DNA from: Ectobacillus sp. JY-23
GTDB lineage: Bacteria; Bacillota; Bacilli; Bacillales; Bacillaceae_G
DNA: 64,000 nt
Direction: 5' to 3'
Assembly: GCF_023022965.1 (NCBI RefSeq)
Contig: NZ_CP095462.1
Location: forward strand, 2,832,001-2,896,000
Positions 1,502-26,330 of this stretch are shown piece by piece. Position 1 is the first letter of the stretch; each line of letters opens with the position of its first letter. The position numbers and the translations under genes were made by a program. The notes under the pieces are model-generated. The model saw only the letters and a list, made by a program, of their open reading frames with translations, made no database searches and had not been told where the DNA came from.

Positions 1502-2773
1502 ATGAAATTCAAAAAAACAGCCGTATTAGCAATGGCTACATCTGCAATGCTCGCGTTTTCAGCGTGTTCTTCTAAAACGTCTAATGAAAGCGCTGACAAA
1601 AAAACAGATGCAAAAGCAACATTGAATGTATTCCAGTTTAAAGTGGAGATCGCTGATGAGCTGGAAAAAATGGCGAAGGAATATGAAAAAGAAACAGGCG
1701 TAAAAGTGAACATTAAAACAGTGGGCGGCGGTGCTGATTACGGTGCAGCCTTAAAATCACAGTTCGCTTCCGGCAACGAGCCTGATATCTTCAATAACGG
1801 TGGCTTTAACGAAGCAATTACTTGGAAGGATAAATTAGAAGATCTTTCTGATCAGCCTTGGGCAAAAGAAGTATACGATGAAGCAAAGGTACCTATGACA
1901 GTTGATGGCAAGCTATATGGTATGCCTATGAACTTAGAAGGTTATGGCTTAATCTACAATAAAGAACTATTTGAAAAAGCGGGTATCACAGAAGCGCCAA
2001 AAACTTTAGATGAGTTAAAGGCTGCGGCGGAAAAGCTTGAGAAAAGTGGTACAACACCATTTTCAGTAGGTTACGGTGAGTGGTGGATCCTAGGTATCCA
2101 TGCATTGAACGTTCCATTTGCACAGCAGGACAATCCAGATCAATTCATTCAGGATTTGAGCGCTGGTAAAGCGAAATTTGCTGGCAACGAAAAGTTCAAC
2201 CAATTCTTTGATCTATTCGATTTAACAATCAAATACGGTAACAAAAATCCGTTAACAACAGACTACAACACACAAGTAACGCAATTTGCTTCTGGTAAAG
2301 CTGCGATGATGCAACAGGGTAACTGGGCACAGCCAATGATCGATAAAATTACGCCAAACATGAAGCTTGGATTCTTGCCAATGCCGATTTCTAACGACAA
2401 AGACAAAATGGATAAATTATTCGTAGGCGTACCGAACAACTGGGTTGTAAACAAAAACTCTAAAAACAAAGAAGAAGCGAAAAAGTTCTTGAACTGGATG
2501 GCTACTTCTAAAACAGGCCAAACGTACATGGTTGAGAAATTTAAGTTTATCCCTGCATTCAAAAACATTGAAGGTAAAAACTTAGGACCATTGGCTGACG
2601 ATATTACGAAGTACATGAAAGAAAACAAAACATTGTCTTGGAACTGGTTTAAATATCCAGACGGAGCTACTAACGAGTTTGGTGCAACAATGCAAGCATA
2701 TGTAGGCAAGCAAAAGGACAAAAACCAAATGCTTGAAGACTTACAAAAAACGTGGGATAAGCTGAAGAAATAA
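1502..2773 (+). CDS. Sugar ABC transporter substrate-binding lipoprotein
   Basis: Extracellular solute-binding protein of family 1 (423 aa), the receptor of the sugar importer whose permeases lie just upstream. Residues 1-22 are a lipoprotein signal peptide with lipobox FSAC, so the mature protein is lipid-anchored on Cys 22. The body has the family pattern: an N-terminal lobe with KVEIADELEKMAKEYEKETG, a hinge region near PMNLEGYGLIYNKELFEKAG, and a lysine-rich C-terminus. It has its own cre-like element upstream and a terminator downstream, so it can be expressed at higher level than the permeases, as is common for binding proteins. The ligand is not identifiable from sequence. Confidence 0.95.
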   Translation: MKFKKTAVLAMATSAMLAFSACSSKTSNESADKKTDAKATLNVFQFKVEIADELEKMAKEYEKETGVKVNIKTVGGGADYGAALKSQFASGNEPDIFNNGGFNEAITWKDKLEDLSDQPWAKEVYDEAKVPMTVDGKLYGMPMNLEGYGLIYNKELFEKAGITEAPKTLDELKAAAEKLEKSGTTPFSVGYGEWWILGIHALNVPFAQQDNPDQFIQDLSAGKAKFAGNEKFNQFFDLFDLTIKYGNKNPLTTDYNTQVTQFASGKAAMMQQGNWAQPMIDKITPNMKLGFLPMPISNDKDKMDKLFVGVPNNWVVNKNSKNKEEAKKFLNWMATSKTGQTYMVEKFKFIPAFKNIEGKNLGPLADDITKYMKENKTLSWNWFKYPDGATNEFGATMQAYVGKQKDKNQMLEDLQKTWDKLKK

Positions 2774-2780
2774 AAACAGA

Positions 2781-2806
2781 AGGTCGGCGTAAGCCGGCCT
2801 TTTTGG
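2781..2806 (+). terminator. Intrinsic terminator after binding-protein gene
   Basis: GGTCGGC-GTAA-GCCGGCC stem with one G-T pair followed by TTTTT, eight bases after the stop codon. Good rho-independent terminator on the + strand. Confidence 0.85.
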
Positions 2807-2873
2807 TTGTAAGGAAAAGTGCTAACATGGCGGCACGTGTTTACACAATGCATCCTACCAACATGTAGTTACG

Positions 2874-2882
2874 TGCTATAAT
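2874..2882 (+). promoter_or_regulatory. Extended -10 promoter for sensor kinase operon
   Basis: TGCTATAAT matches the extended -10 form (TGnTATAAT). No good -35 box is seen 17 bases upstream. It lies about 20 bases before the GGAGG of the kinase gene. Confidence 0.45.
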
Positions 2883-2910
2883 TTAACTATCCTATAAAAT
2901 GGAGGAAGTC

Positions 2911-4716
2911 ATGTTTAGAAGTATTCGCTATAAGCTTATCGTCTTTTTATTATTGGCAACCATTCTACCGTTAGGTGCTTCCATTGTCATTACGTATATA
3001 TACACAAAGCAATCTGTTACTGACCGTACAATTTCCAATGCCTATGATTTACTTTCAAAAGGCAAAACAGATGTGGAGACGTACTTTACGGATATTACGA
3101 ATATCCCTCTCACGATCTATCAAAATCGGCAATTTGTACAAATTTTAGAGAATGGTGCAACCTCTTTTATTGATGAAAATCAACCAGAGATTGCTAGAAG
3201 CTTATTAAATATATACAGCGCGCGCAGTGAGATTAAGCAGGTGCATCTATACATTCATAAAGATCGCGATGACTACGCTGTGTATAATTTAAAGGTGTCG
3301 AGCCGCGGTAAAATGCAAGCGGTTTTAGAGAATGATTATTTTCGGAAATTGATGGTATCCGATCGATATTTTTTGGTGGAGCCAACGCATGTAATTCGTA
3401 GCTATAATAACCTATCTGAAATTTCCGCTACACAAAAGGTGCCGGTTATTAGCTTTCATCATAAGCTTTCTGATGTGATGACGGACCGATTTTTAGGAAT
3501 CGTTTCCATAGATATCGATTTAGAAAGACTGCAATCTATCATGGAGCGTCTTTACAACAAGCAAACAGAAGAAATTTATTTACTTGATCCAAAAGGTGTC
3601 ATGGTATATGCATCAGAAAGTAGTCAGATTGGTCATCCAAACGAAACAGCCTGGTACAACAAATTACTAACACATAGAGAGCATAGCTTTGAATGGGAAG
3701 ACAAGTCATTTAAAGGGGTTGTCGTTCATGAGGAGATGACGGGTGAGTTTGAAGGGTGGCAGCTTGTAAAGCGTATACCTTACAGCGGCCTTTATCGCTA
3801 TGCACAAGAAATTGCGCTTATTAACATTATGATTGGCGGTATCTCATTAATTGTGGTGGTTACCATGACAGTTTTGATTTCCTTCCGTTTAACAGCTCCC
3901 ATTAAAGCATTAATCGCAAGTATGAAAAAAGTAGAACAAGGCGATTGGAAGGTGGATTTACCGAACCTTGGCAATGATGAACTTGGGCTGATGGGCAGAC
4001 ATTTTACATCCATGATTGATACAATTAACGATTTAGTTGTGCGCGAGTATCGACTGGAGATTGAAAATAAATCGAATCAGCTACGCGTCCTGCAGTCGCA
4101 AATTAATCCGCACTTTTTATACAACGCGCTGCAGTCAATTGGTACGCTTTCTTTGCAGAGCAACGCACCGGATGTATACAGGTTATTGACTTCTTTATCC
4201 TCTATCATGCGCTACAGCATGAATATGGAGGATGATATTGTTCCTGTGTCAGCGGAGCTTTCTCATATTGAATCCTACTTAAAGCTGCAGAAACAGCGAT
4301 TTGGCGATCGTTTATCCTACGAGATTGAGGCAGAGCCAGACTTGCTTCCGTCGCAAATGCCAAAGATGAGCCTGCAGCCAATTGTAGAAAATTTCTTTAA
4401 GCACAGCTTTGAAGATTTGGAGCATACGGGTGTTATCACGGTGAAAGTAAACAGAGTGAACTTAGATACAAAGCGTATTGTTATTGCTGATAATGGTAAA
4501 GGCGTTACGGAGGACGAGCTCATTCGTATTAATCTGAAACTAACACAAGATATGAAGTTACATGAAGATCGAGAAGATAGCATTGGTATGAAGAATATAT
4601 ATGATCGTTTGGCCATTTACTATGGTTCACGTGCTGTTATGCACATTGCAAATCGAGAAGGCGGCGGTTTTCAAGTAACATTAGAAATCCCAATTTCCTT
4701 AGAAGGAGAGGAATAA
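2911..4716 (+). CDS. YesM-type sensor histidine kinase
   Basis: Membrane sensor kinase (601 aa from the ATG at 2911, which has GGAGG five bases before it; an in-frame ATG at 2899 has no such site). Order: transmembrane helix about 7-29, extracellular sensor domain to about 295, second transmembrane helix about 300-325, HAMP linker (TAPIKALIASMKKVEQGDW), HisKA_7TM/YesM-type phosphoacceptor motif QSQINPHFLYN with His near residue 401, and an ATPase domain with N-box NFFKHSFEDL and G-box ADNGKGV. It phosphorylates the response regulator encoded immediately downstream, probably sensing availability of the transported sugar outside the cell. Confidence 0.95.
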   Translation: MFRSIRYKLIVFLLLATILPLGASIVITYIYTKQSVTDRTISNAYDLLSKGKTDVETYFTDITNIPLTIYQNRQFVQILENGATSFIDENQPEIARSLLNIYSARSEIKQVHLYIHKDRDDYAVYNLKVSSRGKMQAVLENDYFRKLMVSDRYFLVEPTHVIRSYNNLSEISATQKVPVISFHHKLSDVMTDRFLGIVSIDIDLERLQSIMERLYNKQTEEIYLLDPKGVMVYASESSQIGHPNETAWYNKLLTHREHSFEWEDKSFKGVVVHEEMTGEFEGWQLVKRIPYSGLYRYAQEIALINIMIGGISLIVVVTMTVLISFRLTAPIKALIASMKKVEQGDWKVDLPNLGNDELGLMGRHFTSMIDTINDLVVREYRLEIENKSNQLRVLQSQINPHFLYNALQSIGTLSLQSNAPDVYRLLTSLSSIMRYSMNMEDDIVPVSAELSHIESYLKLQKQRFGDRLSYEIEAEPDLLPSQMPKMSLQPIVENFFKHSFEDLEHTGVITVKVNRVNLDTKRIVIADNGKGVTEDELIRINLKLTQDMKLHEDREDSIGMKNIYDRLAIYYGSRAVMHIANREGGGFQVTLEIPISLEGEE

Positions 4717-16186: not shown

Positions 16187-16313
16187 TCGTGTAGCTTTTT
16201 AATATGCTTAAGTATAATGTTTTCAAGTAGGGGCGTTGAGAAGTGATAAGAGATTCTTGGCGTCCCTTCTGTGGTTATTTCAATGCGTGCGACTAAGCCA
16301 TGAAAAATATCGG

Positions 16314-16351
16314 GAGCTACTTCTTGTATGCTAGCATACAAGAAGTAGCTC
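16314..16351. repeat. 38-bp perfect palindrome, probable terminator
   Basis: The sequence from GAGCTACTTCTTGTATG (16314) across CTAG to its exact reverse complement (ending 16351) is a perfect 38-bp palindrome, followed by TTTTACTTTACTT. As RNA it makes a 17-bp stem with a four-base loop and T-rich tail, so it can terminate the methyltransferase transcript. It also overlaps the end of the recombinase remnant and marks the left edge of the accessory island. Confidence 0.8.
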
Positions 16352-16648
16352 TTTTACTTTACTTAGTGCAACTTTACTTTTTCTATACGACTGGTTAATT
16401 CCTATTACTAGTTGTTTTACAAAATAATGATCATTAAGTAAATGGACTAGTCTCGTAATATTAATTGAGTTTTGTTTTTTAATATTATGGATTGAGCACG
16501 CTTTTTTTCCATAGCGGGCGTAGCTACCATAAATATAGCCTTTTCTACGTGAGCGATACCACATCCCTCTGCCACAATCCGCACAAAAAAGAATATTTGT
16601 GAATAGGTGTTTCTTTAGAGCGATAAGATTTTTAGTCCGAATTTTCAT
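16331..16648 (-). pseudogene. Fragment of a large serine recombinase (zinc beta-ribbon part)
   Basis: A 105-codon frame corresponds to the recombinase zinc beta-ribbon domain of large serine integrases: hydrophobic LFTNILFCADCGRGMWYRS with CxxC, then YGSYARYGKKACS and the IxxxxL segment NITRLVHLLNDHY. The catalytic serine N-terminal domain and the recombinase domain are absent, and the frame runs into the 38-bp palindrome, so this is a decayed remnant of a mobile element integrase. It supports past insertion of mobile DNA at the left boundary of the B12 island. No flanking attachment-site repeats were identified by eye. Confidence 0.65.
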
Positions 16649-17085
16649 TTGTTACTTAACAGCTTTGAAGTCCTCAAAAGAAATGATAGCTTCGTGGGCA
16701 TTCTTTGTTACAACATGTTCTTTAGGATTTATATTCTTTCTTTTATTGCTTGTAACGCTTTGTACTGAACCCTTCCTTGTACAAGATCCCCAGATTTGTG
16801 AGAATTAAACGAATAGTAGAACCTATCCACTTGCGCAGGTGGTAGGATATCATCCTTATAAAGTCTCTTGCGATATTGTCAGTATGACAGCAGTTTAAAA
16901 TGAAATTAGTTGCTCCTAAAATGGAACTTGTTGTACTAAATAGAGATCAGGAATGGTGAAAAGTTGAAATTGAACAGGTGTTTTAGCGTAGTACTAAAAT
17001 GAACAGATAGAACAATGAACACATTAAGGATAACATCATTAAAACATAAATAAAGATACAACTCCTCTTAAAGTCAAAGCGGCTC
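16649..17085. other. Non-coding AT-rich stretch between recombinase remnant and riboswitch promoter
   Basis: About 440 bases with stops in all frames apart from short spurious frames. The phrases TACTAAAATG and GTACTAAA recur loosely between 16915 and 17000 and could be decayed mobile-element DNA, but nothing is recognisable. No gene is supported. Confidence 0.5.
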
Positions 17086-17114
17086 TTGAACAATCTATGT
17101 AACTTCTATAAAAT
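17086..17114 (+). promoter_or_regulatory. Sigma-A promoter for the cobalamin riboswitch transcript
   Basis: TTGAAC, 17-base spacer, TAAAAT: one mismatch in each hexamer. The predicted transcription start near 17121 coincides with the start of the first riboswitch. No comparable promoter is seen before copies 2 or 3, so all three probably lie on one transcript. Confidence 0.7.
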
Positions 17115-17120
17115 GAGTAC

Positions 17121-17310
17121 ATATGGTTGCAGTTTGCATTAATAGGGAATTTGGTGAAAATCCAAAACAGCTCACTTCTACTGTAAAAGCTACGAAACAT
17201 TCGCTAATGTCACTGGGAAACCGGGAAGACGGAATGGATTAGGATTGAAGCTTTAAGTCAGGAGACCTGCCATAAACCTAATACAAGTCTTTCGGTGAGG
17301 AAAGTTTGTT
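17121..17310 (+). promoter_or_regulatory. Cobalamin riboswitch, copy 1
   Basis: Complete cobalamin aptamer. The B12 box AAGTCAGGAGACCTGCC is at 17255-17271. Upstream are other conserved blocks: AATAGGGAATTTGGTG, CAGCTC..., GTCACTGGGAAACCGGGAAGACGG. The ATTAGG before and CCTAAT after the B12 box can pair. The start coincides with the predicted transcription start. It is followed by an intrinsic terminator at 17393, so cobalamin binding should stop transcription. The riboswitch class and its conserved blocks are established knowledge; the control of the operon downstream is inference from position. Confidence 0.93.
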
Positions 17311-17392
17311 ATCAAAACTTGTGTATACCTATATGCATATGGATACTATTTGCAATTTTAATTATCGCAAAAATGTGTCTTTTTTGATAACT

Positions 17393-17425
17393 AACGATTC
17401 TTGCTTTTGCAAGAATCGTTCTTTA
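17393..17425 (+). terminator. Terminator of riboswitch copy 1
   Basis: AACGATTCTTGC-TTTT-GCAAGAATCGTT, a 12-bp perfect stem followed by CTTTATT. Probably the terminator arm of the riboswitch expression platform; the hairpin around AAGTTTGTTATCAAAACTT (about 17302-17321) may belong to the switching region. Confidence 0.8.
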
Positions 17426-17553
17426 TTGCGTATGATTTTAAGCGATTAAGATCACTGGAGAAATTAAAAGATGGGGAGGTGATTAAAAAATCGAAATGCA
17501 AAAATTTGCAGTATAACATGTTTTACCAGAGTAAAAGTTTAGTCCGAATGGGG

Positions 17554-17744
17554 GTATGGTTGCAGTTTGCATTAATAGGGGATTTGGTGAAAAACCAAAA
17601 CAGCTCACTTCTACTGTAAAAGCTACGAAACATTCGCTAATGTCACTGGGGAACCGGGAAGACGGAATGGATTAGGATTGAAGCTTTAAGTCAGGAGATC
17701 TGCCATAAACCTAATACAAGTCTTTCGGTGAGGAAAGTTTTTTA
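17554..17744 (+). promoter_or_regulatory. Cobalamin riboswitch, copy 2 (diverged)
   Basis: Second aptamer, 433 bases downstream of copy 1. The B12 box is AAGTCAGGAGATCTGCC (17688-17704), one base different from the other copies, and the start reads AATAGGGGATTTGGTGAAAAACC. All conserved blocks remain, including GGGGAACCGGGAAGACGG, so ligand binding is plausible. Its downstream hairpin is weakened (see the terminator entry). Confidence 0.88.
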
Positions 17745-17821
17745 TCAAAACTTGCGTATATTTATATGCGTATGGATACTATTTGCAATTTTAATTATCG
17801 CACAATGTGTCTTTTTTGATA

Positions 17822-17856
17822 ACCGATGATTCTTTCTTTTGCAAGGATTGTTCTTT
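17822..17856 (+). terminator. Weakened terminator of riboswitch copy 2
   Basis: CGATGATTCTTTC-TTTT-GCAAGGATTGTTC. Compared with copies 1 and 3 the stem has a mismatch next to the loop and several G-T pairs. It may terminate poorly. Confidence 0.5.
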
Positions 17857-17971
17857 ATTGCGTATGATTTTAAGCAATTGGGGTTACCAGAAGAATTAAA
17901 AGATGATTTAAATGCAAGAAAATTTGCAGTATAACATGTTTTACTAACGTAAAAATTTAGATTAAATAGGC

Positions 17972-18162
17972 ATATGGTTGCAGTTTGCATTAATAGGGAA
18001 TTTGGTGAAAATCCAAAACAGCTCACTTCTACTGTAAAAGCTACGAAACATTCGCTAATGTCACTGGGAAACCGGGAAGACGGAATGGATTAGGATTGAA
18101 GCTTTAAGTCAGGAGACCTGCCATAAACCTAATACAAGTCTTTCGGTGAGGAAAGTTTGTTA
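17972..18162 (+). promoter_or_regulatory. Cobalamin riboswitch, copy 3
   Basis: Third aptamer, 418 bases downstream of copy 2, with B12 box AAGTCAGGAGACCTGCC at 18106-18122. It matches copy 1 essentially base for base through the aptamer and the terminator, unlike copy 2. It is the copy closest to the first gene of the uptake operon (start 18420), separated from it by its own terminator at 18244 and about 140 bases of leader. Confidence 0.93.
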
Positions 18163-18243
18163 TCAAAACTTGTGTATACCTATATGCATATGGATACTAT
18201 TTGCAATTTTAATTATCGCAAAAATGTGTCTTTTTTGATAACT

Positions 18244-18277
18244 AACGATTCTTGCTTTTGCAAGAATCGTTCTTTAT
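18244..18277 (+). terminator. Terminator of riboswitch copy 3
   Basis: Same hairpin as copy 1: AACGATTCTTGC-TTTT-GCAAGAATCGTT followed by CTTTATT. It is the last gate before the operon. Confidence 0.8.
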
Positions 18278-18419
18278 TGCGTATGATTTTAAGCGATTAA
18301 GATCACCGGAAAAATTAAAAGGTGGTAAGGTAATTAAAAAAGATTTAAATACAGTTTGCGGTATAGCATGTTTTACTAGAGCAATCGTTTATGAATTGGA
18401 GGAAAGGATGAATTAAACA

Positions 18420-21074
18420 ATGAAGAAATTTGTAAAAGTGCTTCTTGTCATGTGTATGATTTTTTCAATTTTTTCTATCTCAACCCCTTCATTAGCGGCA
18501 CCTTCTGGAAACCCTAAAGGTTATATAACGATGTCAGCTGATGTAAATACGCTGGGAGCAGGTTTTCTATATGAACCCGTAAAGGTTCCTTTTTATACTG
18601 GGGAAACTTATGCCGATGTGACGGACAGGTTTTTGGGTTCATCTAACTATCGTAGTTCTGGTCAACAAGAAATGTTTTATTTGTCTAGGATTAAACTAAA
18701 CCGCTCTTTGAGTATCCAAGTTCCACAGATATTGCAGAACGAAATGGGCATGACAAACGCAGACATTATCAATGTGGGAGTAAATGAACAAGGGCACCTT
18801 GGAGAATTTGATTATAGTTCTATGTCTGGTTGGATGTATTCGGTAAACAACGAATTTTCAAATGTAGGAGTTGGAGCTAAAACACCTAAAGATGGTGATG
18901 TATGCAGATGGCAATTTACGCTCACAGGTTTTGGTGCTGACTTAGGTCAGGATAATTCAGCATGGGGGGGATCACCAGCACTTTATGTAGGGGCTGATCG
19001 CAGTAATCTCCTGACCCAGGTTGCACAAATAAACAGTGCTGCCAACAAGGCAGAGCTTTTAGCCAAGCCCGGCGTTCTTACAGCCTATAACAATGCTAAT
19101 GCAGCACTAACAAATCTAACGGCTACACAAGAACAAATTAATAATACATCGACTGCCTTAACTACTACATTGAATACTGCAATACCGGCAAGCAGTATTG
19201 ATATTAGTACGCAACTGAACGCAAGCTTAGCATCTATATTGGCCGCTGCTCCTTCACCAGGTTTTGGTACACTTAATGGTGAATGGACAGTTCTTTCGTT
19301 ATCTAGATCCGGATACTCTGTTCCTAAAAATTATTTTTCTGATTACTATAACCGTGTAGTTACACATGTGCAATCTGTAGGAGGAATACTTTCTACTTCT
19401 CAGTATACAGAGTACTCTAGATTAACACTTGCATTAAGTGCGATTGGAAAATCAAGTACAAATGTAGGCGGGTATAACCTTTTAGAGAATCTGGCAAATT
19501 ATGAAAAAACAATAAGTCAAGGTATAAATGGTGCCATCTTTGCATTAATTGCACTTGATACAAATAACTATGAAATTCCTATTATAGCAGATACCGCTAA
19601 ACAGGCTACCCGTCAAAAATATATTGACTTTATCTTATCGAAAGAAGTGAAAAAAGACACTCCACAAGCAGGTGGTTTTACTTTATACGGCTCGACGCCT
19701 GACCCTGATATTACAGGCATGGTACTTCAAGCACTTGCACCATATAAATCACAACCAAAAGTTGAAACTACAATTGATAGAGCAGTTAAAGCACTTTCAA
19801 CCATCCAAAAAGACACTGGAGGTTTTACCGCTTTCGGTTCAACTTCCAGTGAAAGTATTGCTCAAGTAATTGTTGGGCTTACAGCCCTTGGTATTGATCC
19901 GGCGACTGACAGCCGTTTTGTAAAAAGCGGTGGTAATTTAGTTTCCGCATTGCTCACTTTTTACGTTGAGGGCGGCGGCTTTAAGCATATTGCGACAGGA
20001 AATAGAGATGGAATGGCTACAGATCAAGGGACTTATGCATTGATTGCATATGACCGATTTGTCAAAGGAAAAAACAGTCTCTATAATATGACAGATGCAT
20101 TTAAAAGTGTGGAAGAACCTGGAACGGACCCTGGTGGAGAACCAAAACCGATTGATGCACAAGTTACAATTGATGCCCCAGACCAAGTAGTTGCCAAAGC
20201 TGGAAATGTATTCAACGCAATTATTAAAACAGATGCATTTCCTGTCGGAGACTACAAACTGATGGATGGCGTTATTAATATCCCTGACGAACTAAGCATT
20301 GAAGATATATCAATTTCAGAGCGTATGCAGGGCGGTTCACTTGCTTGGAATTATAATGCTTCTGATAAGAAACTTAGATTTGTATATACTAACTCGGATT
20401 TAAAAAATATCAGTTTATCAGGAGAGAAATTCCCCGCTGAATTATTGACTCTTCAATTAAAAGTAAAGAATGACATTGATACGAAAATTACGCCGAATAC
20501 TGAAATCTCCGTTGGCGGGATCAGTTTAAAGAAAGCCTCTAACCTCTCGGCTTTAGTTTTTGATAGCTCAAAAGCAGTGAAAACCGTTAAGTTTTCAAAT
20601 GTTGCTATTAGCATTAGAAAGCTGTTTGAAGGCGATGGGATTGATTTGATTCCGGCAAACAAGAAGGCTATTGCTTTTACAATTGGCGGTATCAAAAGCG
20701 GAACAAAAGTTAAATACAAAAACGCAGATTTAATTTATTCGAGCGAAATGACAGCAAAACGTGGCGTGGATACCTACGTATTAATGACTAATGTTAGTGA
20801 AGCTGATTCAAACTTACTAAATAGTTCCAACTATAGCTTTTTAACAGATGCAACAAAGACTATTACATTTGGTGATATTGATGCCAATGGCATCATTAAT
20901 GCGCAAGATGCTTTGAATGTTATCTCTGCTTGGCTTAGAAAGGTAGATGTGAGTGAAGATGAAAAAATTCTTCGTATGAACGTAACGTCTGATTCAAGAA
21001 TTAATACCTTTGATGCACTTGCTATTATGGAGAATTATGTTTCCCAAAGTGAACTTGCAATCATAGGAAAATAA
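18420..21074 (+). CDS. Secreted intrinsic-factor/transcobalamin-like protein with dockerin
   Basis: Exported 884-aa protein, first gene behind the riboswitches. Signal peptide 1-27. Residues about 35-175 are a DUF4430 domain, recognisable from SGWMYSVNNEFSNVG and PKDGDVCRWQFTLTGFG; this domain is related to the C-terminal domain of animal cobalamin carriers. About 195-255 is an alanine/asparagine-rich helical linker. About 280-575 is an alpha/alpha-barrel, prenyltransferase/squalene-cyclase-like region with repeats such as AGGFTLYGSTPDPDITGMVLQAL, TGGFTAFGSTSSESIAQVIVGL and GGGFKHI...DGMATDQGTYALIAYDRF, like the other half of intrinsic factor. About 590-740 looks cohesin-like. The C-terminus (from about 817) is a type I dockerin: GDIDANGIINAQDALNVISAW and a second copy NVTSDSRINTFDALAIMENY. 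Proposed role: capture of cobalamin outside the cell. Binding is inferred, not shown. Confidence 0.88.
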   Translation: MKKFVKVLLVMCMIFSIFSISTPSLAAPSGNPKGYITMSADVNTLGAGFLYEPVKVPFYTGETYADVTDRFLGSSNYRSSGQQEMFYLSRIKLNRSLSIQVPQILQNEMGMTNADIINVGVNEQGHLGEFDYSSMSGWMYSVNNEFSNVGVGAKTPKDGDVCRWQFTLTGFGADLGQDNSAWGGSPALYVGADRSNLLTQVAQINSAANKAELLAKPGVLTAYNNANAALTNLTATQEQINNTSTALTTTLNTAIPASSIDISTQLNASLASILAAAPSPGFGTLNGEWTVLSLSRSGYSVPKNYFSDYYNRVVTHVQSVGGILSTSQYTEYSRLTLALSAIGKSSTNVGGYNLLENLANYEKTISQGINGAIFALIALDTNNYEIPIIADTAKQATRQKYIDFILSKEVKKDTPQAGGFTLYGSTPDPDITGMVLQALAPYKSQPKVETTIDRAVKALSTIQKDTGGFTAFGSTSSESIAQVIVGLTALGIDPATDSRFVKSGGNLVSALLTFYVEGGGFKHIATGNRDGMATDQGTYALIAYDRFVKGKNSLYNMTDAFKSVEEPGTDPGGEPKPIDAQVTIDAPDQVVAKAGNVFNAIIKTDAFPVGDYKLMDGVINIPDELSIEDISISERMQGGSLAWNYNASDKKLRFVYTNSDLKNISLSGEKFPAELLTLQLKVKNDIDTKITPNTEISVGGISLKKASNLSALVFDSSKAVKTVKFSNVAISIRKLFEGDGIDLIPANKKAIAFTIGGIKSGTKVKYKNADLIYSSEMTAKRGVDTYVLMTNVSEADSNLLNSSNYSFLTDATKTITFGDIDANGIINAQDALNVISAWLRKVDVSEDEKILRMNVTSDSRINTFDALAIMENYVSQSELAIIGK

Positions 21075-21141
21075 CATTCTCGAGGATAGGGGCAGTTCAA
21101 ATTTACGGATTGTCCCTATTATTTATACAGGGGGCATACTG

Positions 21142-21801
21142 GTGAGTATTTTTAAAAGAGTCCGAAACAGCGAATTTTTAAAAAAGAAATCGACGCGTAT
21201 TGTAGGCATCATTCTTATGGTGCTACTTATTCTATCTAGTATTTTTATATACTTCAACAATAAAAATGTTTTTAGAGAGCTTTTTGCACCATCTATTACT
21301 TTAGTTTCTCCCGCACCGATCAAGCCTTCAAATAGAAATGAAATCACTGTAGATGTCATGGTGTCGGATCTTCCAGATAACATCTATCCCGCTGCTAGTC
21401 TTTCTATTAATTTTGATAAAAACAAGTTGGACTTCATTGGGGTAAAACAAGGAACGATGATGACCTTGGGCGACTCGACAGCTCAAAAGAAGGTATATAA
21501 CATTCCTATTTGGAAAAGTGATCCGGCAGTATCAAATAAAAGTGGTCAGATTAATACAATGTATCTTGATATGACAGGTGGAAAGTATGCTTATACCAAA
21601 GAAGGTTTTAATAAAAAAGAAAAAAATATCTTGTTACGCTTAACTTTTAAACTAAGAGATAGCGTAGTGAGTGGTGAAGTTTACGATTTAATCATTCGTG
21701 ATGCTATTATAGCTACAGCAGATAATGATATAAAGAAAACCAGCTTGGCTTCCAATAATAACACACTAAAAACATATCCGGCTAAAATTGTTGTGAAATA
21801 A
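21142..21801 (+). CDS. Membrane-anchored cohesin-domain protein
   Basis: Protein of 219 aa with a short basic N-terminus, one uncleaved transmembrane helix at about 19-38 (RIVGIILMVLLILSSIFIYF) and an extracellular beta-rich domain at about 50-218 resembling a cohesin: ITVDVMVSDLPDNIYPAASLSINFDKNKLDFIGV, then LLRLTFKLRDSV and YDLIIRDAII. Start GTG 21142 preceded by CAGGGGG. Cohesins bind dockerins, and the only visible dockerin is in the preceding gene, so this protein probably tethers the cobalamin-capture protein to the membrane. The pairing is inferred from co-location; the fold assignment is moderate because cohesins diverge strongly. Confidence 0.78.
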   Translation: MSIFKRVRNSEFLKKKSTRIVGIILMVLLILSSIFIYFNNKNVFRELFAPSITLVSPAPIKPSNRNEITVDVMVSDLPDNIYPAASLSINFDKNKLDFIGVKQGTMMTLGDSTAQKKVYNIPIWKSDPAVSNKSGQINTMYLDMTGGKYAYTKEGFNKKEKNILLRLTFKLRDSVVSGEVYDLIIRDAIIATADNDIKKTSLASNNNTLKTYPAKIVVK

Positions 21802-21830
21802 ACGACATCGTTTATAAGGAGGAGAGAAAT

Positions 21831-23090
21831 TTGAATGAAAACTTGAGGTATTTCCTAAAGCATAACTTATCTAGATGGTATGTCATCCTCTTAATTGTTC
21901 TGATGATATCATTATTAAGTGGTTGTTTTGAGAAGGGTACTGTCCAAAGGACCAATCAAATTCCAAGTGATGGTGGTATTTCTCATAAGGTTTTTAAAAA
22001 TATAAAAGCCACAAAGGATATTGGGATTTTTAACGGAAATAGCAATGGAATTACATACCAATGGATGTTCTTAGGAAGTGGGATTGATAAACCTAAAGAT
22101 GAAAACCTTCTTGTTACATTTTCTAATGCTAAGACTACGGAAATAAAAAAACAATTAGGAACAGAATATGTGCAAGAGTTCAGCTTCTCTTCTAATGGAG
22201 TAGTGTCTGGCAAACCTTCATTATCTATATACTTGAATACCCCTTGGAATGCAAATTCAGCTGAAGTATATCAATATGATGAAGCAGATGGTACAGCTAA
22301 ATTGGTTTCGGAAGCAACACTTGAGAATTCTCCTAATGGAACCATCACTTTCATTCCAAAGAAATATAAAGGATTATTCTATATCGTTGGAGTTAGTAAG
22401 AAAAACAGCGTCGAAGCAACAAACAACCAAACGGCAACGAATAATGAAGCAGCATCAACCGCTGAATCCAGTCAGGAAAACCAAGCTAGTAGTGCAAAAC
22501 AAGATGATTATTTATCAAAAGAAAAAAAACCAGCTGAAAAGGCAAAAGAAAATGGTTCTAAATCTAGTACTTCAAATTCAAATCAACAAGATAAATATTT
22601 AACAAATCCAATTCCTGAAGGCAAACCTAAACCTACAGAGCCAGAAAATACAACGGTTAATAAAGGTAAGAAGTATACTGCTACTTTATCTATTCGTAGC
22701 GACACCATTCTAAAAAATATGGACAAGTTTAATAAAGACAAGTTATCCGTTCTTCCGAAAGATGGCGTAATCATGAAAACCAGAAGAGTTCAATTTTATG
22801 AGGGAGAAAGTGTCTTTGATGTGTTAAAGCGCGAAACGATGGCCTCAAAGATACATATGGAAATGGAATTTTATCCAATTTATAATAGTGCTTATATTGA
22901 AGGTATCAACAATATCTATGAATTTGATTGCGGCGAACTTTCCGGATGGATGTATAAAGTCAACGGGTGGTTTCCTAATTATGGTAGTAGTCGTTACAAG
23001 CTCAAGAATGGAGATGTTATTGAATGGGTGTATACCTGCGATTTGGGTCGGGACGTTGGTGGGTATGTTGAGGGAGTGAAAAATCAATGA
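21831..23090 (+). CDS. DUF4430 lipoprotein, probable cobalamin-handling protein
   Basis: Lipoprotein of 419 aa. TTG start at 21831 with AAGGAGGAG upstream. The signal peptide has lipobox LLSGC, so the mature protein begins at Cys32. Residues about 45-195 form a beta-rich domain I do not recognise; 195-270 is a low-complexity linker rich in N, Q, S and K; about 275-415 is a DUF4430 domain with ELSGWMYKVNGWFPNYGSS and LKNGDVIEWVYTCDLGRDVG, parallel to the DUF4430 of the first gene. It is well placed to hand ligand from the secreted protein to the ECF transporter. The next gene overlaps its stop by four bases (ATGA). Confidence 0.85.
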   Translation: MNENLRYFLKHNLSRWYVILLIVLMISLLSGCFEKGTVQRTNQIPSDGGISHKVFKNIKATKDIGIFNGNSNGITYQWMFLGSGIDKPKDENLLVTFSNAKTTEIKKQLGTEYVQEFSFSSNGVVSGKPSLSIYLNTPWNANSAEVYQYDEADGTAKLVSEATLENSPNGTITFIPKKYKGLFYIVGVSKKNSVEATNNQTATNNEAASTAESSQENQASSAKQDDYLSKEKKPAEKAKENGSKSSTSNSNQQDKYLTNPIPEGKPKPTEPENTTVNKGKKYTATLSIRSDTILKNMDKFNKDKLSVLPKDGVIMKTRRVQFYEGESVFDVLKRETMASKIHMEMEFYPIYNSAYIEGINNIYEFDCGELSGWMYKVNGWFPNYGSSRYKLKNGDVIEWVYTCDLGRDVGGYVEGVKNQ

Positions 23091-23980
23091 TGAAAGACGC
23101 TTTTTCTACCTGTCATCCATTTGTAAACTTTTCTTATTTTACTCTAGTGATTGTGTTTTCTATGTTTTTTTTACACCCAGTGCTTTTGCCAATCTCTTTA
23201 TGTGTGGCAGTTACCTATTCAATTTATCTAAATGGAGTAAAAGCATTGAAATTTAATGTGTTCGCTATGATTCCTACCATGTTGCTTGCCGCTGCTATTA
23301 ATCCCATGTTTAGCCATGCAGGTATGACAATTCTTTATTATCTCGATAACGGTAACCCGATTACCCTAGAATCTATCTTCTACGGAATCGCTGTGGGATG
23401 TATGTTCATTACTGTGATTATTTGGTTTTCTTGTTATAACAAGGTAATGACCTCTGATAGGTTCATTTATCTTTTCGGGAGATTGATTCCAGCGTTATCA
23501 CTTATTTTATCAATGGTTTTACGATTTGTGCCGAAATTTAAATCTCAAATTAAAGAAATCTCCAATGCACAAAAATGCATTGGAAGGAATGTATCTGATG
23601 GAAGTATTTTTGTGAGAGCACGAACTGGTTTAACCATTATGTCCATTCTTATTACTTGGGCTCTAGAAAATGCCATTGAAACCGCTGATTCAATGAAATC
23701 GAGAGGCTATGGCTTAAAAGGAAGAACTGCTTTTTCCATTTTCCAGATCGATAAGAGAGATAAGTGCCTGTTGTTCATTTTTCTTTTATGTACTGCTGTA
23801 ATTCTTCTGGGAGTATATCAAGGAATTACAACAATTAAGTTCTTTCCGGCCATTTTAATCAAGCCATACTCGATATTCCATTTGATTGTTTATATTGCAT
23901 ATACAATCTTATTGTCTATACCCATGATTTTGAACATAATGGAGGATATAAAATGGAAATCTATAAAATCAATCACTTAA
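23087..23980 (+). CDS. ecfT: ECF transporter transmembrane protein EcfT
   Basis: Energy-coupling membrane subunit (297 aa) of an ECF vitamin transporter. Hydrophobic helices span about 15-125, and 225-285; the middle holds the coupling helices with the EcfT signature SMKSRGYGLKGRTAF (near residues 205-219), equivalent to the Ala-Arg-Gly motif that docks on the ATPases. The start overlaps the lipoprotein stop (ATGA), and the 3' end overlaps the ATPase gene by 28 bases, so translation of the operon is coupled. It is a dedicated EcfT, not the shared group II copy, because ATPases and an S component lie beside it. Confidence 0.93.
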   Translation: MMKDAFSTCHPFVNFSYFTLVIVFSMFFLHPVLLPISLCVAVTYSIYLNGVKALKFNVFAMIPTMLLAAAINPMFSHAGMTILYYLDNGNPITLESIFYGIAVGCMFITVIIWFSCYNKVMTSDRFIYLFGRLIPALSLILSMVLRFVPKFKSQIKEISNAQKCIGRNVSDGSIFVRARTGLTIMSILITWALENAIETADSMKSRGYGLKGRTAFSIFQIDKRDKCLLFIFLLCTAVILLGVYQGITTIKFFPAILIKPYSIFHLIVYIAYTILLSIPMILNIMEDIKWKSIKSIT

Positions 23981-25632
23981 GCTTTGCCTATCCTGAAAAA
24001 GAAGGCCAGGCACTCCAAGATGTTACCATTCAGATCAATCAAGGTGATTTTACAGTTGTCTGTGGAAAATCAGGTTGTGGAAAATCAACCTTACTCCGAC
24101 ACCTGAAAACTGTTTTAACCCCTCATGGAGAACGTAAAGGGGAAATTTTATATATGAGACAGCCAATAAATGCAGTATCTAATCGAATACAAGCAGAACA
24201 GATAGGGTTTGTTTCACAAAACCCGGACAATCAGATTGTAACTGATAAAGTATGGCATGAATTAGCATTTGGATTAGAAAGTCTAGGTGTTGATAGTCAA
24301 ACAATCCGCCTTCGAGTTGCTGAAATTGCTAGCTTTTTTGGTATTCAGAACTGGTTTGCAAAAGATGTAACTGAGCTTTCTGGTGGACAAAAACAATTGC
24401 TGAATTTAGCTTCTATCATGGCAATGCATCCTCGCGTACTAATATTGGATGAACCAACCGCACAGCTAGATCCAATTGCAGCATCTGATTTTTTGGCAGC
24501 AATTAATAAAATTAATAAAGAACTAGGTGTTACAGTTATCTTGACTGAGCACCGTTTAGAAGAGGTATTCCCAATGGCTGATAAAGTCATTGTAATGGAA
24601 GATGGCCAGGTCCTTGTTCATGATACGCCAATTAATGTCGGACTTATGCTAAAAGAAACAAAACATAAATTAATAAAAATCCTTCCAAGTGCTATGCAAA
24701 TATTTGCTTGTTTAAATAGTTCAGATTCTTCTCCAATCACAGTTCGAGACGGAAGAAACTTTTTGAACAGTTTTTTGGGTGACAGAAAAATTCAAGAACT
24801 ATCGTACCAAGTGAATCGTCCTCAGTCTACTGAGGAAACAATCATTGAACTGCGTAATCTTTACTTCAGATATGAAAGGAACGGGACAGATATTTTAAAA
24901 GGGCTCTCACTGAATGTTCCTAAGGGAAGATTATATACACTGTTGGGTGGAAATGGTACAGGAAAATCGACCCTGTTATCTGTTATTACTGGTATTAATA
25001 AAGTGTACAGAGGCCAGGTATTCCTCTCTGGAAAACCAATCGGGAAATTTAGTAATAAAGAATTATTTCATCAAAATATCGCGATGCTACCGCAAAATCC
25101 GCAGTCGATTTTTGTGAAAAAAACAGTCGAATTGGATTTATTGGATATATTAGAAGGCAGGAAGTTAAGCAAGGATGAGATGAAACAAAAAGTGAATACT
25201 ATTGCTGATCAGCTGGAAATTACACATTTGTTATCTTCACATCCTTATGATTTGAGCGGTGGTGAACAACAGCGAGCGGCATTGGCAAAAGTGTTGTTGC
25301 TAGAACCTCAAATACTCCTATTAGATGAGCCTACGAAAGGACTCGATTGTTGCTTTAAGGATAAGTTAGCGAGTATTTTAAAGCGGTTGCTAGATAACAA
25401 GGTTACTATTCTTATGGTTTCCCATGATATTGAATTTTGTGCAAAGTATGCAGATATCTGCGCACTTTGTTTTAACGGAAGTATTATTTCTGAAGGGGAT
25501 CCAAGAACTTTCTTTAGTGGGAACAGTTTTTACACAACTGCCGCCAATCGTATATCGCGACTTCGAATTACAAATGCAATAACTAATGAGGATGTGATTG
25601 AATGTTGTCAACAAGTCACTCAGCAAAGTTAA
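23953..25632 (+). CDS. ECF transporter ATPase, fused EcfA-EcfA'
   Basis: Tandem ABC ATPase of 559 aa: both nucleotide-binding domains of the ECF module in one chain. Domain 1 has Walker A GKSGCGKST (about 38-46), signature LSGGQKQ and Walker B RVLILDEPTAQLDP. Domain 2 has Walker A GGNGTGKST (about 332-340), signature LSGGEQQR and Walker B QILLLDEPTKGLD. Q-loops SQNPDNQI and PQNPQSIF are of the ECF type. Preceded by GGAGGATATAAA inside the end of ecfT. Fused A-A' pairs occur in dedicated systems and make the locus self-contained except for regulation. Confidence 0.94.
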   Translation: MEIYKINHLSFAYPEKEGQALQDVTIQINQGDFTVVCGKSGCGKSTLLRHLKTVLTPHGERKGEILYMRQPINAVSNRIQAEQIGFVSQNPDNQIVTDKVWHELAFGLESLGVDSQTIRLRVAEIASFFGIQNWFAKDVTELSGGQKQLLNLASIMAMHPRVLILDEPTAQLDPIAASDFLAAINKINKELGVTVILTEHRLEEVFPMADKVIVMEDGQVLVHDTPINVGLMLKETKHKLIKILPSAMQIFACLNSSDSSPITVRDGRNFLNSFLGDRKIQELSYQVNRPQSTEETIIELRNLYFRYERNGTDILKGLSLNVPKGRLYTLLGGNGTGKSTLLSVITGINKVYRGQVFLSGKPIGKFSNKELFHQNIAMLPQNPQSIFVKKTVELDLLDILEGRKLSKDEMKQKVNTIADQLEITHLLSSHPYDLSGGEQQRAALAKVLLLEPQILLLDEPTKGLDCCFKDKLASILKRLLDNKVTILMVSHDIEFCAKYADICALCFNGSIISEGDPRTFFSGNSFYTTAANRISRLRITNAITNEDVIECCQQVTQQS

Positions 25633-26330
25633 ACAAGCGAACAATTGTCGCTTCATTTCTTATTCTGATTGTAATTCCATTAACTATTGCTGCAGGGATA
25701 TACCTCCTGAATGATAGGAAATATTATTTAATCAGTCTTTTAATTATTACCTATTCAATGCTTCCATTTGCTATGGTATTTGAAAATAGAAAGCCGCAGG
25801 CACGGGAGCTAATTGTTATTGCGGTTCTTTGTGCTATTGCAGTAGCTGGCCGAGCAGCATTTTTTATGATTCCTCAATTTAAGCCAGTAGTTGCAGTCGT
25901 TATTATAGCTGGTGTGACTTTAGGTGCAGAGAGCGGGTTTTTAGTCGGTGTAATGACAGGTTTTGTGTCAAATTTCTTTTTTGGACAAGGACCTTGGACG
26001 CCTTGGCAAATGTTTTGTTTTGGTATAATCGGTTTTTTAGCAGGTGTGTTGTTTAAGAAAGGAGTTTTATCTAAAAAGAAAGTCGCACTCTGCCTGTTTG
26101 GGGGCTTAGCTACCTTCTTTATTTATGGAGGGATTATTAATCTGGGTTCTTTACTAATGTGGTCGTCAAAACCAACTATGCAAGCTCTAATAGCCACGTA
26201 TATTGCTGGTTTTCCATTTGATTTGGGTCATGCCGCCGCCACTGTCATATTTTTAGCGCTCATCGCTGACACTATGATTGAAAAGATAGACCGAATTAAG
26301 AAGAAGTATGGTTTAGTAGAACCCAATTAA
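25602..26330 (+). CDS. ECF transporter S component, probable cobalamin-specific
   Basis: Substrate-binding membrane subunit (242 aa) with about six hydrophobic helices and the S-component pattern: RELIVIAVLCAIAVAGRAAF near 66-85, then GAESGFLVGVMTGFVSNFFFGQGPWTPWQMFCFG, where GxxxGxxxG and GPWTPWQM are typical of cobalamin/CbrT-like S components as I recall them. Its start lies 31 bases inside the ATPase gene. Because the operon is under cobalamin riboswitches, the ligand is probably cobalamin or a precursor such as cobinamide. The S family could not be confirmed without a search. Confidence 0.85.
   Translation: MLSTSHSAKLNKRTIVASFLILIVIPLTIAAGIYLLNDRKYYLISLLIITYSMLPFAMVFENRKPQARELIVIAVLCAIAVAGRAAFFMIPQFKPVVAVVIIAGVTLGAESGFLVGVMTGFVSNFFFGQGPWTPWQMFCFGIIGFLAGVLFKKGVLSKKKVALCLFGGLATFFIYGGIINLGSLLMWSSKPTMQALIATYIAGFPFDLGHAAATVIFLALIADTMIEKIDRIKKKYGLVEPN

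Follow-up and report, generated by a model that had tools for sequence, protein, structure and literature searches.

The window analysed here is a stretch of 64,000 nucleotides of Ectobacillus sp. JY-23 (assembly GCF_023022965.1, contig NZ_CP095462.1, positions 2,832,001-2,896,000), and coordinates are those of the window unless the host genome (one contig of 3.89 Mb, labelled G000) is named. Six closely packed open reading frames (ORFs) occupy positions 18420-26330 of its plus strand, all of them where an earlier note on this DNA had placed them. They encode a secreted protein (P0001), a membrane-anchored cohesin (P0002), a lipoprotein (P0003) and the T, A-A' and S components of an energy-coupling factor (ECF) transporter (P0004-P0006), and cobalamin riboswitches lie ahead of them on the same strand. 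This operon is very likely a corrinoid capture-and-import cassette.

P0001 (18420-21074; 884 amino acids, aa) starts with a signal peptide, recognised by eye, followed by a DUF4430/SLBB domain resembling the beta domain of transcobalamin (aa 26-185; 18495-18974), an alpha/alpha toroid (aa 270-570; 19227-20129), a cohesin-like module (aa 573-812; 20136-20855) and a probable dockerin (aa 815-875; 20862-21044). The SLBB domain is recognised by Pfam over aa 129-167 (E 1.4e-10) and by Foldseek against 5np4 (TMt 0.64). AlphaFold models this domain and the toroid mostly with good confidence, the helical toroid having predicted local distance difference test (pLDDT) values mostly of 80-97. The toroid is 47-54% identical to those of 13 relatives and is matched by a cyclase-type Pfam model below the cut-off (E 0.0014). 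When the P0001 model was compared by Foldseek with the Protein Data Bank (PDB), toroid enzymes led the matches, rat transcobalamin came at rank 16 (E 6.8e-4) and TC:CD320 at ranks 20-21. Human transcobalamin appeared at rank 32 (E 1.7e-3, TMt 0.64), as its isolated beta domain with cyanocobalamin. Since the toroid fold is common to many enzymes, the match of the SLBB domain to transcobalamin is the more telling. The earlier note had described P0001 as an intrinsic-factor-like protein with two domains. Both folds do match those of transcobalamin, but DUF4430 precedes the toroid, the reverse of the animal order (toroid then beta domain, according to the part of PMC1796856 available), and the toroid matches cyclases and prenyltransferases as well or better. 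Lacking both the order and the sequence kinship that characterise the animal intrinsic factor/transcobalamin family, P0001 matches it in fold only.

In 15 related loci, 16 sequences align with the dockerin of P0001 (PF00404). By eye, the first loop of the P0001 dockerin is canonical and the second degenerate, and three P0001 homologues tested fall under the cut-off of the Dockerin_1 model. The cohesin-like module is related to the P0002 family by hhalign (E 4.8e-6, probability 86%). In one homologue (L108), this module matches Pfam Cohesin below the cut-off (E 0.0012), and the profile of the P0001 module had no match in the PDB. The earlier note had seen only the cohesin half of the tether proposed below, missing the C-terminal dockerin, the cohesin-like module and the reversed domain order.

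P0002 (21142-21801; 219 aa) has one N-terminal helix (aa 16-39) and an extracellular domain that is a cohesin, as the earlier note had suggested. It is matched by PF00963 (E 1.5e-6) at 28.9 bits for a cut-off of 24.1, below which three homologues tested fall. Its model has a pLDDT of 88, and all of the 50 Foldseek matches listed for it in the PDB contain cohesin. Moreover, the four PDB matches of the family profile at E <=0.01 are all cohesin chains (5nrm, 5nrk, 5lxv and 4uyp, described as cohesins). P0003 (21831-23090) is a DUF4430 lipoprotein with a lipobox, LLSGC, recognised by eye. Its DUF4430/SLBB domain (aa 325-402; 22803-23036) is matched by Pfam at E 4.7e-18, and a further domain lies near its N terminus (aa 38-192; 21942-22406).

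The transporter consists of an EcfT of the CbiQ family (P0004, 23087-23980; PF02361, E 1.1e-6), a fused EcfA-EcfA' ATPase (P0005, 23953-25632; PF00005 over two stretches, TIGR04520 over cut-off) and an S component (P0006, 25602-26330; PF12822, ECF_trnsprt). These Pfam and NCBIfam domains confirm the complete dedicated ECF transporter, together with the DUF4430 lipoprotein, that the earlier note had listed. ECF transporters with dedicated T, A, A' and S components form group I. The only solved structure matched by P0006 at E <0.01 is 6FNP_A, a chain of 182 residues (E 1.3e-14) that is taken to be CbrT, and the next solved protein stands at E 0.65. 6FNP is the structure of ECF-CbrT, and CbrT of Lactobacillus delbrueckii imports cobalamin and cobinamide (PMC5997447, in the part available). 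Specificity of the S component for another vitamin, which the earlier note had named beforehand as counting against its own reading, is not what the kinship with CbrT suggests. Uptake of nickel or cobalt ions was likewise rejected, on the ground of this CbrT-like S component.

The leader of about 2.2 kb before P0001, which has no plus-strand ORF of at least 90 aa, carries three cobalamin riboswitches in tandem (RF00174; 17107-18283), at 83-99 bits for a cut-off of 31.5. The presence of such riboswitches ahead of the operon, claimed by the earlier note, is thus borne out. Each is followed by a hairpin: aptamer 1 (17107-17288; 93.7 bits) by a terminator-type hairpin of 12 bp with a weak T-run (17393-17420; -19.9 kcal/mol), aptamer 2 (17540-17721; 83.1 bits) by a stretch with a weaker hairpin (17812-17864; -8.2 kcal/mol) located by alignment and unlisted by the hairpin and terminator scans, and aptamer 3 (17958-18139; 99 bits) by a terminator-type hairpin (18244-18271) supported by hairpin scans and folding energy. 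Despite their poor T-runs, these hairpins are likely to be terminators. Units 1 and 3 are near-identical from the aptamer core to the hairpin, which suggests a recent duplication or conversion; unit 2 deviates from them at scattered positions of the alignment. That the triplet is an assembly artefact is disfavoured by its differing flanks and by the single-contig genome. A scan for sigma-70 promoters gave 37 sites for a shuffle mean of 40.3, hence no excess. The part of PMC9481103 available reports 26 doublets of adenosylcobalamin (AdoCbl) riboswitches and no AdoCbl triplet ahead of one operon, and that of PMC12452182 likewise names no such triplet. Further upstream, between rlmD and the riboswitches, a long hairpin of 19 pairs with T-rich flanks on both strands (16312-16353) is probably a two-way terminator.

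The rest of the genome informs on the need of the host for B12. It contains five cobalamin riboswitches: the three described here, one before a second DUF4430 operon and one before metE. Five matches to B12-binding domains were found. Methylmalonyl-CoA mutase, MeaB and MetE exceed their NCBIfam cut-offs, MetH falls below because the stretch analysed cuts it, the matches of a CarH-like regulator and a B12 radical-SAM protein are far below cut-off, and one ORF is IcmF-like by our own reading. CbiA and CobQ/CbiP require GATase_3. The three GATase_3 matches of the genome are PdxT, PurQ and HisH, so that no CbiA/CobQ-type amidase was found, other B12-pathway genes not having been searched. With B12-dependent enzymes and no such amidase, the host cell uses B12 and probably cannot make it. 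The second operon (L020:7143-12781, about 503142-508780 of G000) has its own cobalamin riboswitch and encodes a DUF4430-toroid protein with an LPXTG-like end, a lipoprotein, T, A-A' and an S component that also matches 6FNP_A (E 3.2e-14).

Relatives of the operon were collected from a class sample of 299 genomes, where P0001 was matched in 40 including the host and 38 stretches around matches were analysed, and from named genomes, which were scanned with the alignment of toroids and where the best 80 of 385 relatives fell in 75 loci. Together with the window and the second operon of the host, they form a set of 115 loci to which hidden Markov models (HMMs) of dockerin, cohesin and S-layer homology (SLH) domains were applied. 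The search in other genomes that the earlier note had proposed was fruitful: toroid, T and S occur together in 32 of the 38 class-sample stretches, and 15 of the 75 named loci encode a toroid-dockerin protein, then a P0002 homologue (identity to P0002 34-56%) and, where the contig reaches, a lipoprotein and the transporter. These cassettes, called clip cassettes below, come from Clostridium, Romboutsia, Terrisporobacter, a metagenome-assembled genome (MAG) of Clostridioides, Oscillospiraceae and other Clostridia, as well as from three MAGs whose labels place them in actinobacterial groups. A cobalamin riboswitch is present somewhere in all 39 genomes checked with the relatives and also in 8 of 14 control genomes; therefore, its position is what matters. 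In 32 of the 38 class-sample loci, a riboswitch on the same strand is found no more than 1.5 kb from the start of the operon; the other six comprise one cut by a contig end, four with a riboswitch at 1.5-3 kb and one with a riboswitch 11 kb upstream. Just upstream of the clip cassettes, Rfam finds a cobalamin or AdoCbl riboswitch in 12 of 15 (partial in L124), and the three others are all less than 1 kb from a contig end (L113 and L131 begin at or near it, L118 has 972 bases upstream). These positions, the kinship of P0006 with CbrT and the transcobalamin-like folds of P0001 support the earlier claim that the operon is dedicated to corrinoid uptake, with a layer for capture outside the cell and, probably, a tether.

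Dockerin and cohesin go together in these loci. A dockerin on the capture protein and a P0002-type cohesin are both present in 16 of the 115 loci and both absent from 99, neither occurring alone (Fisher p 7e-20; kinship is not taken into account here, and some genomes contribute more than one locus). In all 16, a dockerin gene is directly 5' of the cohesin gene; in L131, this is the gene of a second dockerin protein (2395-3672) located between those of the capture protein and the cohesin. A locus of Terrisporobacter mayombei (L109), cut and at first counted as pair-less, turned out once extended to encode toroid-dockerin, cohesin, lipoprotein, T, A-A' and S, and is a 17th case. A whole-genome search of the 14 genomes behind 15 loci (that of L116 left out) found exactly one P0002 homologue in each of 13, among them Terrisporobacter mayombei, and none in the genome of L144, a locus where no dockerin was seen. 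Outside such loci, P0002 seems rare: as a single sequence it was found only in the host among 19 genomes of the host family, and among 398 genomes of the class only in the host, apart from two matches, both weak and partial (E about 1e-3; open frames of some 730 residues), that were not counted. The family profile found the host genome only among 398 genomes of the phylum.

The N-terminal domain of P0003 accompanies the dockerin. It was found in 13 of the 16 dockerin loci, also in the 17th, and in only two of the 99 others (L144 and, weakly, L166). In the dockerin loci without it, the sequence stops before the lipoprotein (L124) or the lipoprotein is shorter (L130 and L153). A search with P0003 as a single sequence gave nothing significant. 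This domain may sense or hold the docked carrier.

Among the 90 loci with toroid, SLBB and T, the capture protein bears SLH domains in 63, a dockerin in 15, a membrane- or LPXTG-like end in nine and no recognised anchor in three; dockerin and SLH were found together on the capture proteins of none of them. In the class sample, SLH domains and LPXTG- or membrane-like ends prevail. In a clostridial locus (L126:7891-9660), an SLBB protein with CWB2 repeats (Pfam) lies beside the clip cassette, as do others, by eye, in L111 and L114; hence, two kinds of anchor can be combined within one operon. In a quick transporter tree (EcfT and ATPase from 84 loci, of which 14 have the dockerin type), seven changes are required for the dockerin type, at least four of them on supported branches, and its grouping in one clade is rejected (AU p 4e-8). 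The cohesin-dockerin anchor type is thus supported as having arisen more than once on this tree. The anchor of the capture protein is therefore a replaceable module, which can be SLH, LPXTG-like or membrane-type, or cohesin-dockerin. The row of the window is not firmly placed on the tree; nearest by path is L116, a Clostridium with the clip.

The operon also differs from its surroundings in composition. Positions 17000-26330 have a G+C content of 36.3% vs 42.3% in the rest of the window, and the third-position G+C is 28-33% in the six operon genes vs 45-63% in three neighbouring genes. The best matches of the P0001 toroid are clostridial (59-62% identity over the best segments, among the best 80 of 385) vs at most 53% in the class sample. 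The simplest reading of this foreign composition and of these matches is that the operon was transferred from a donor resembling a clostridium.

Gene content, domains, folds, riboswitches, kinship of the S component, joint presence of dockerin and cohesin, multiple origins and foreign composition, all obtained by computation, lead us to propose the following scheme, whose predicted parts are the binding of B12, the binding of dockerin to cohesin, the order of hand-off and the regulation in the cell. In replete cells, the three tandem riboswitches would act as OFF switches silencing expression, so that the system would be on when corrinoid is scarce. The corrinoid would be bound between the DUF4430/SLBB domain and the toroid of secreted P0001, whose C-terminal dockerin would clip non-covalently, probably with calcium, onto the cohesin of P0002, which is held in the membrane by one helix. 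P0003 would then take over the ligand with its own SLBB domain for delivery to the CbrT-like S component, and import would be powered by EcfT and the fused ATPase. Taken as a whole, we consider this scheme probable. We read the cohesin-dockerin pair as an exchangeable, non-cellulosomal and probably calcium-dependent tether for a transcobalamin-like B12 catcher, replacing the usual wall anchor. Since such a clip would be non-covalent and probably calcium-dependent, the carrier may even leave the cell, bind B12 afar and be re-captured by its private cohesin; the N-terminal domain of P0003 would recognise the loaded, docked carrier and trigger the hand-off, and cohesin, dockerin and lipoprotein domain would make up an exchangeable receptor module, swapped several times with wall anchors. 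We regard this extension as rather unlikely.

Several observations weigh against the scheme. The P0001 model is poor from about residue 563 on, i.e. over the C-terminal third, and the fold of the dockerin consequently rests on HMMs. The Dockerin_1 score of P0001 is above the cut-off of 22.9 bits in one scan (24.4 bits) and below it in another (20.9 bits), and the profile of the SLBB domain had no match in the PDB. The loci counted also served to build the HMMs of dockerin and cohesin, LPXTG and transmembrane ends were called by rough patterns, and the joint presence of adjoining genes could reflect inheritance as a block. Furthermore, two loci (L160:5228-9772 and L180:5291-9817) encode proteins of about 1500 residues with an ordinary C-terminal dockerin and, by eye, an SLBB-like N terminus, beside a lone toroid protein and without a P0002-type cohesin in the locus. 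In the transporter tree, branches are long and the composition of many rows is odd. The tree offers only four independent contrasts, too few for a p of 0.05, and these agree 4/4 by construction since every row carries the same label for dockerin as for cohesin. Some further points of this kind belong to the other explanations considered below.

Within P0001 itself, the cohesin-like module is a second possible partner for the dockerin. The dockerin could bind this module in other P0001 molecules and thus form chains, P0002 being only their root. The kinship of aa 573-812 with cohesins suggests this, as does a match of the module in 12 of 15 related dockerin loci (only partly in L126); however, in L113, L114 and L118, the P0002 homologue is present and the module unmatched in the dockerin protein, and we find such chains unlikely. 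Alternatively, P0002 could serve every dockerin protein of the cell as a general receptor, its position in a B12 operon being incidental. The genome has 11 dockerin matches and two cohesins over cut-off, P0002 and one inside a subtilase, plus one weak match, each in a separate ORF. Besides P0001, the dockerins are C-terminal in ten ORFs of 1353-1421 aa (at 3755055, 3759474, 3882546 and 3890365 of G000 and six other places; loci L021 and L023-L029). One of these has Peptidase_S8, Cohesin and Dockerin_1 by Pfam, three more are subtilases by eye, and the ten might bind each other. No multi-cohesin scaffoldin was seen among the cohesin matches, which speaks against a cellulosome, glycoside hydrolases not having been searched. 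At positions 10-11 of the dockerin loops, which we take to be recognition positions, the first loop reads AQ by eye in 16 of 17 dockerins of B12 operons (P0001, 15 from toroid proteins and the second one of L131) and GQ in that of L118. None of the ten others has AQ there, showing I or V and a variable residue instead, though one has AQ in its second loop. This code argues for a private P0001-P0002 pair. In addition, searches of 18 other genomes of the family and 397 others of the phylum sample found no P0002; the protein shares the foreign composition of the B12 operon and belongs to a family that is single-copy and adjoins B12 genes in the genomes of 13 relatives. A general receptor is therefore very unlikely.

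Other doubts bear on the ligand. It could be a corrinoid precursor or an unusual cobamide instead of complete B12, given that CbrT also takes cobinamide (PMC5997447, in the part available) and that the second complete DUF4430-ECF operon of the genome could share the work with this one. The lack of a CbiA/CobQ-type amidase for early precursors in the genome speaks against it, and both S components match CbrT about equally, so that they are not told apart; we hold a ligand other than B12 to be rather unlikely. That the toroid is an enzyme, of terpene-cyclase or prenyltransferase type, and not a B12 binder is suggested by its best matches in sequence and fold, namely squalene-hopene cyclase, drimenyl diphosphate synthase and farnesyltransferase. 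In the search of the PDB with the toroid profile, squalene-hopene cyclase and drimenyl synthase come closer than transcobalamin, which is not among the matches, these being cyclases and transferases; terpene cyclases and farnesyltransferases also rank top in the fold search. But P0001 has a signal peptide and a fusion to an SLBB domain matching the transcobalamin beta domain, the toroid gene lies behind cobalamin riboswitches and beside a CbrT-like transporter in most relatives, and, in the second operon, the toroid homologue has a weak match, below cut-off, to the animal Cobalamin_bind model (E 0.003). An enzymatic toroid is thus highly improbable, and B12 capture by P0001 stays the preferred reading.

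Part of this system had been foreseen. The earlier note held that such an extracellular capture layer was undescribed as a system; this does not stand, for Burroughs et al. 2007 (PMC1796856) had already predicted B12 scavenging by SLBB-toroid proteins with CbiO/CbiQ. In the part of that paper available, Gram-positive secreted fusions of SLBB (DUF4430) and toroid, in either order, are described in one operon with a second SLBB paralogue and CbiO/CbiQ. Surface tethering by a Gram-positive anchor motif or polysaccharide-binding domains is suggested there as well, in hosts usually without key enzymes of B12 synthesis. The operon of the window belongs to this class, with SLBB and toroid in one secreted protein, CbiO/CbiQ-type genes alongside and a host in which no CbiA/CobQ-type amidase was found among the GATase_3 matches. 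The words cohesin and dockerin are absent from the text of PMC1796856 as available, and neither a riboswitch survey nor an anchor exchange was found in it. No paper linking cohesin-dockerin to B12 or vitamin uptake was found in the open-licence literature, judged mostly from listings, and PMC10553843, in the part available, treats cobalamin and cohesin/dockerin as separate topics. As far as these searches show, a tether by cohesin and dockerin and the strictness of its pairing in these loci are new within this literature, and so are the lipoprotein domain that travels with it, the exchange of anchors and the triple AdoCbl riboswitch.

The cassette can be compared with several known systems. 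The S component of ECF-CbrT is related to P0006; however, CbrT shares a common ECF module and is described without extracellular capture proteins (PMC5997447, in the part available), whereas T, A-A' and S are dedicated here and accompanied by three extracellular or surface proteins. The NEAT/Isd relay (PMC7815599, in the part available) likewise involves a proposed passage of a cofactor, heme, between binding domains from the surface through the wall to the membrane, with different domains and a different ligand. The surface lipoproteins BtuG/DUF4465 of Bacteroides, as far as their description was available, also capture B12 ahead of a transporter but belong to other protein families. Their setting is the outer membrane, and NEAT/Isd proteins are anchored by sortase. 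Cohesin-dockerin pairs are best known from cellulose-digesting complexes; with these, the system has in common a putative type I-like dockerin with two loops and the cohesin fold of P0002, and it differs in its vitamin uptake operon, its one membrane cohesin and the absence of any scaffoldin seen. Cohesin-dockerin recognition is apparently at work in vitamin uptake, and the cassette offers compact, testable parts for the holding and movement of B12 across the thick Gram-positive wall, a step that seems to have been little tested. With animal intrinsic factor, haptocorrin, transcobalamin and their receptors, the likeness lies in the toroid and beta-grasp domains, in a carrier outside the cell and in a receptor on the cell. 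The domain order of P0001 is reversed and its proposed receptor is a bacterial cohesin, to which, to our knowledge, the receptors of animal B12 carriers are unrelated. If the carrier is releasable, this would be a close functional parallel to the animal B12 carriers and would bear on the competition for B12 in communities such as that of the gut.

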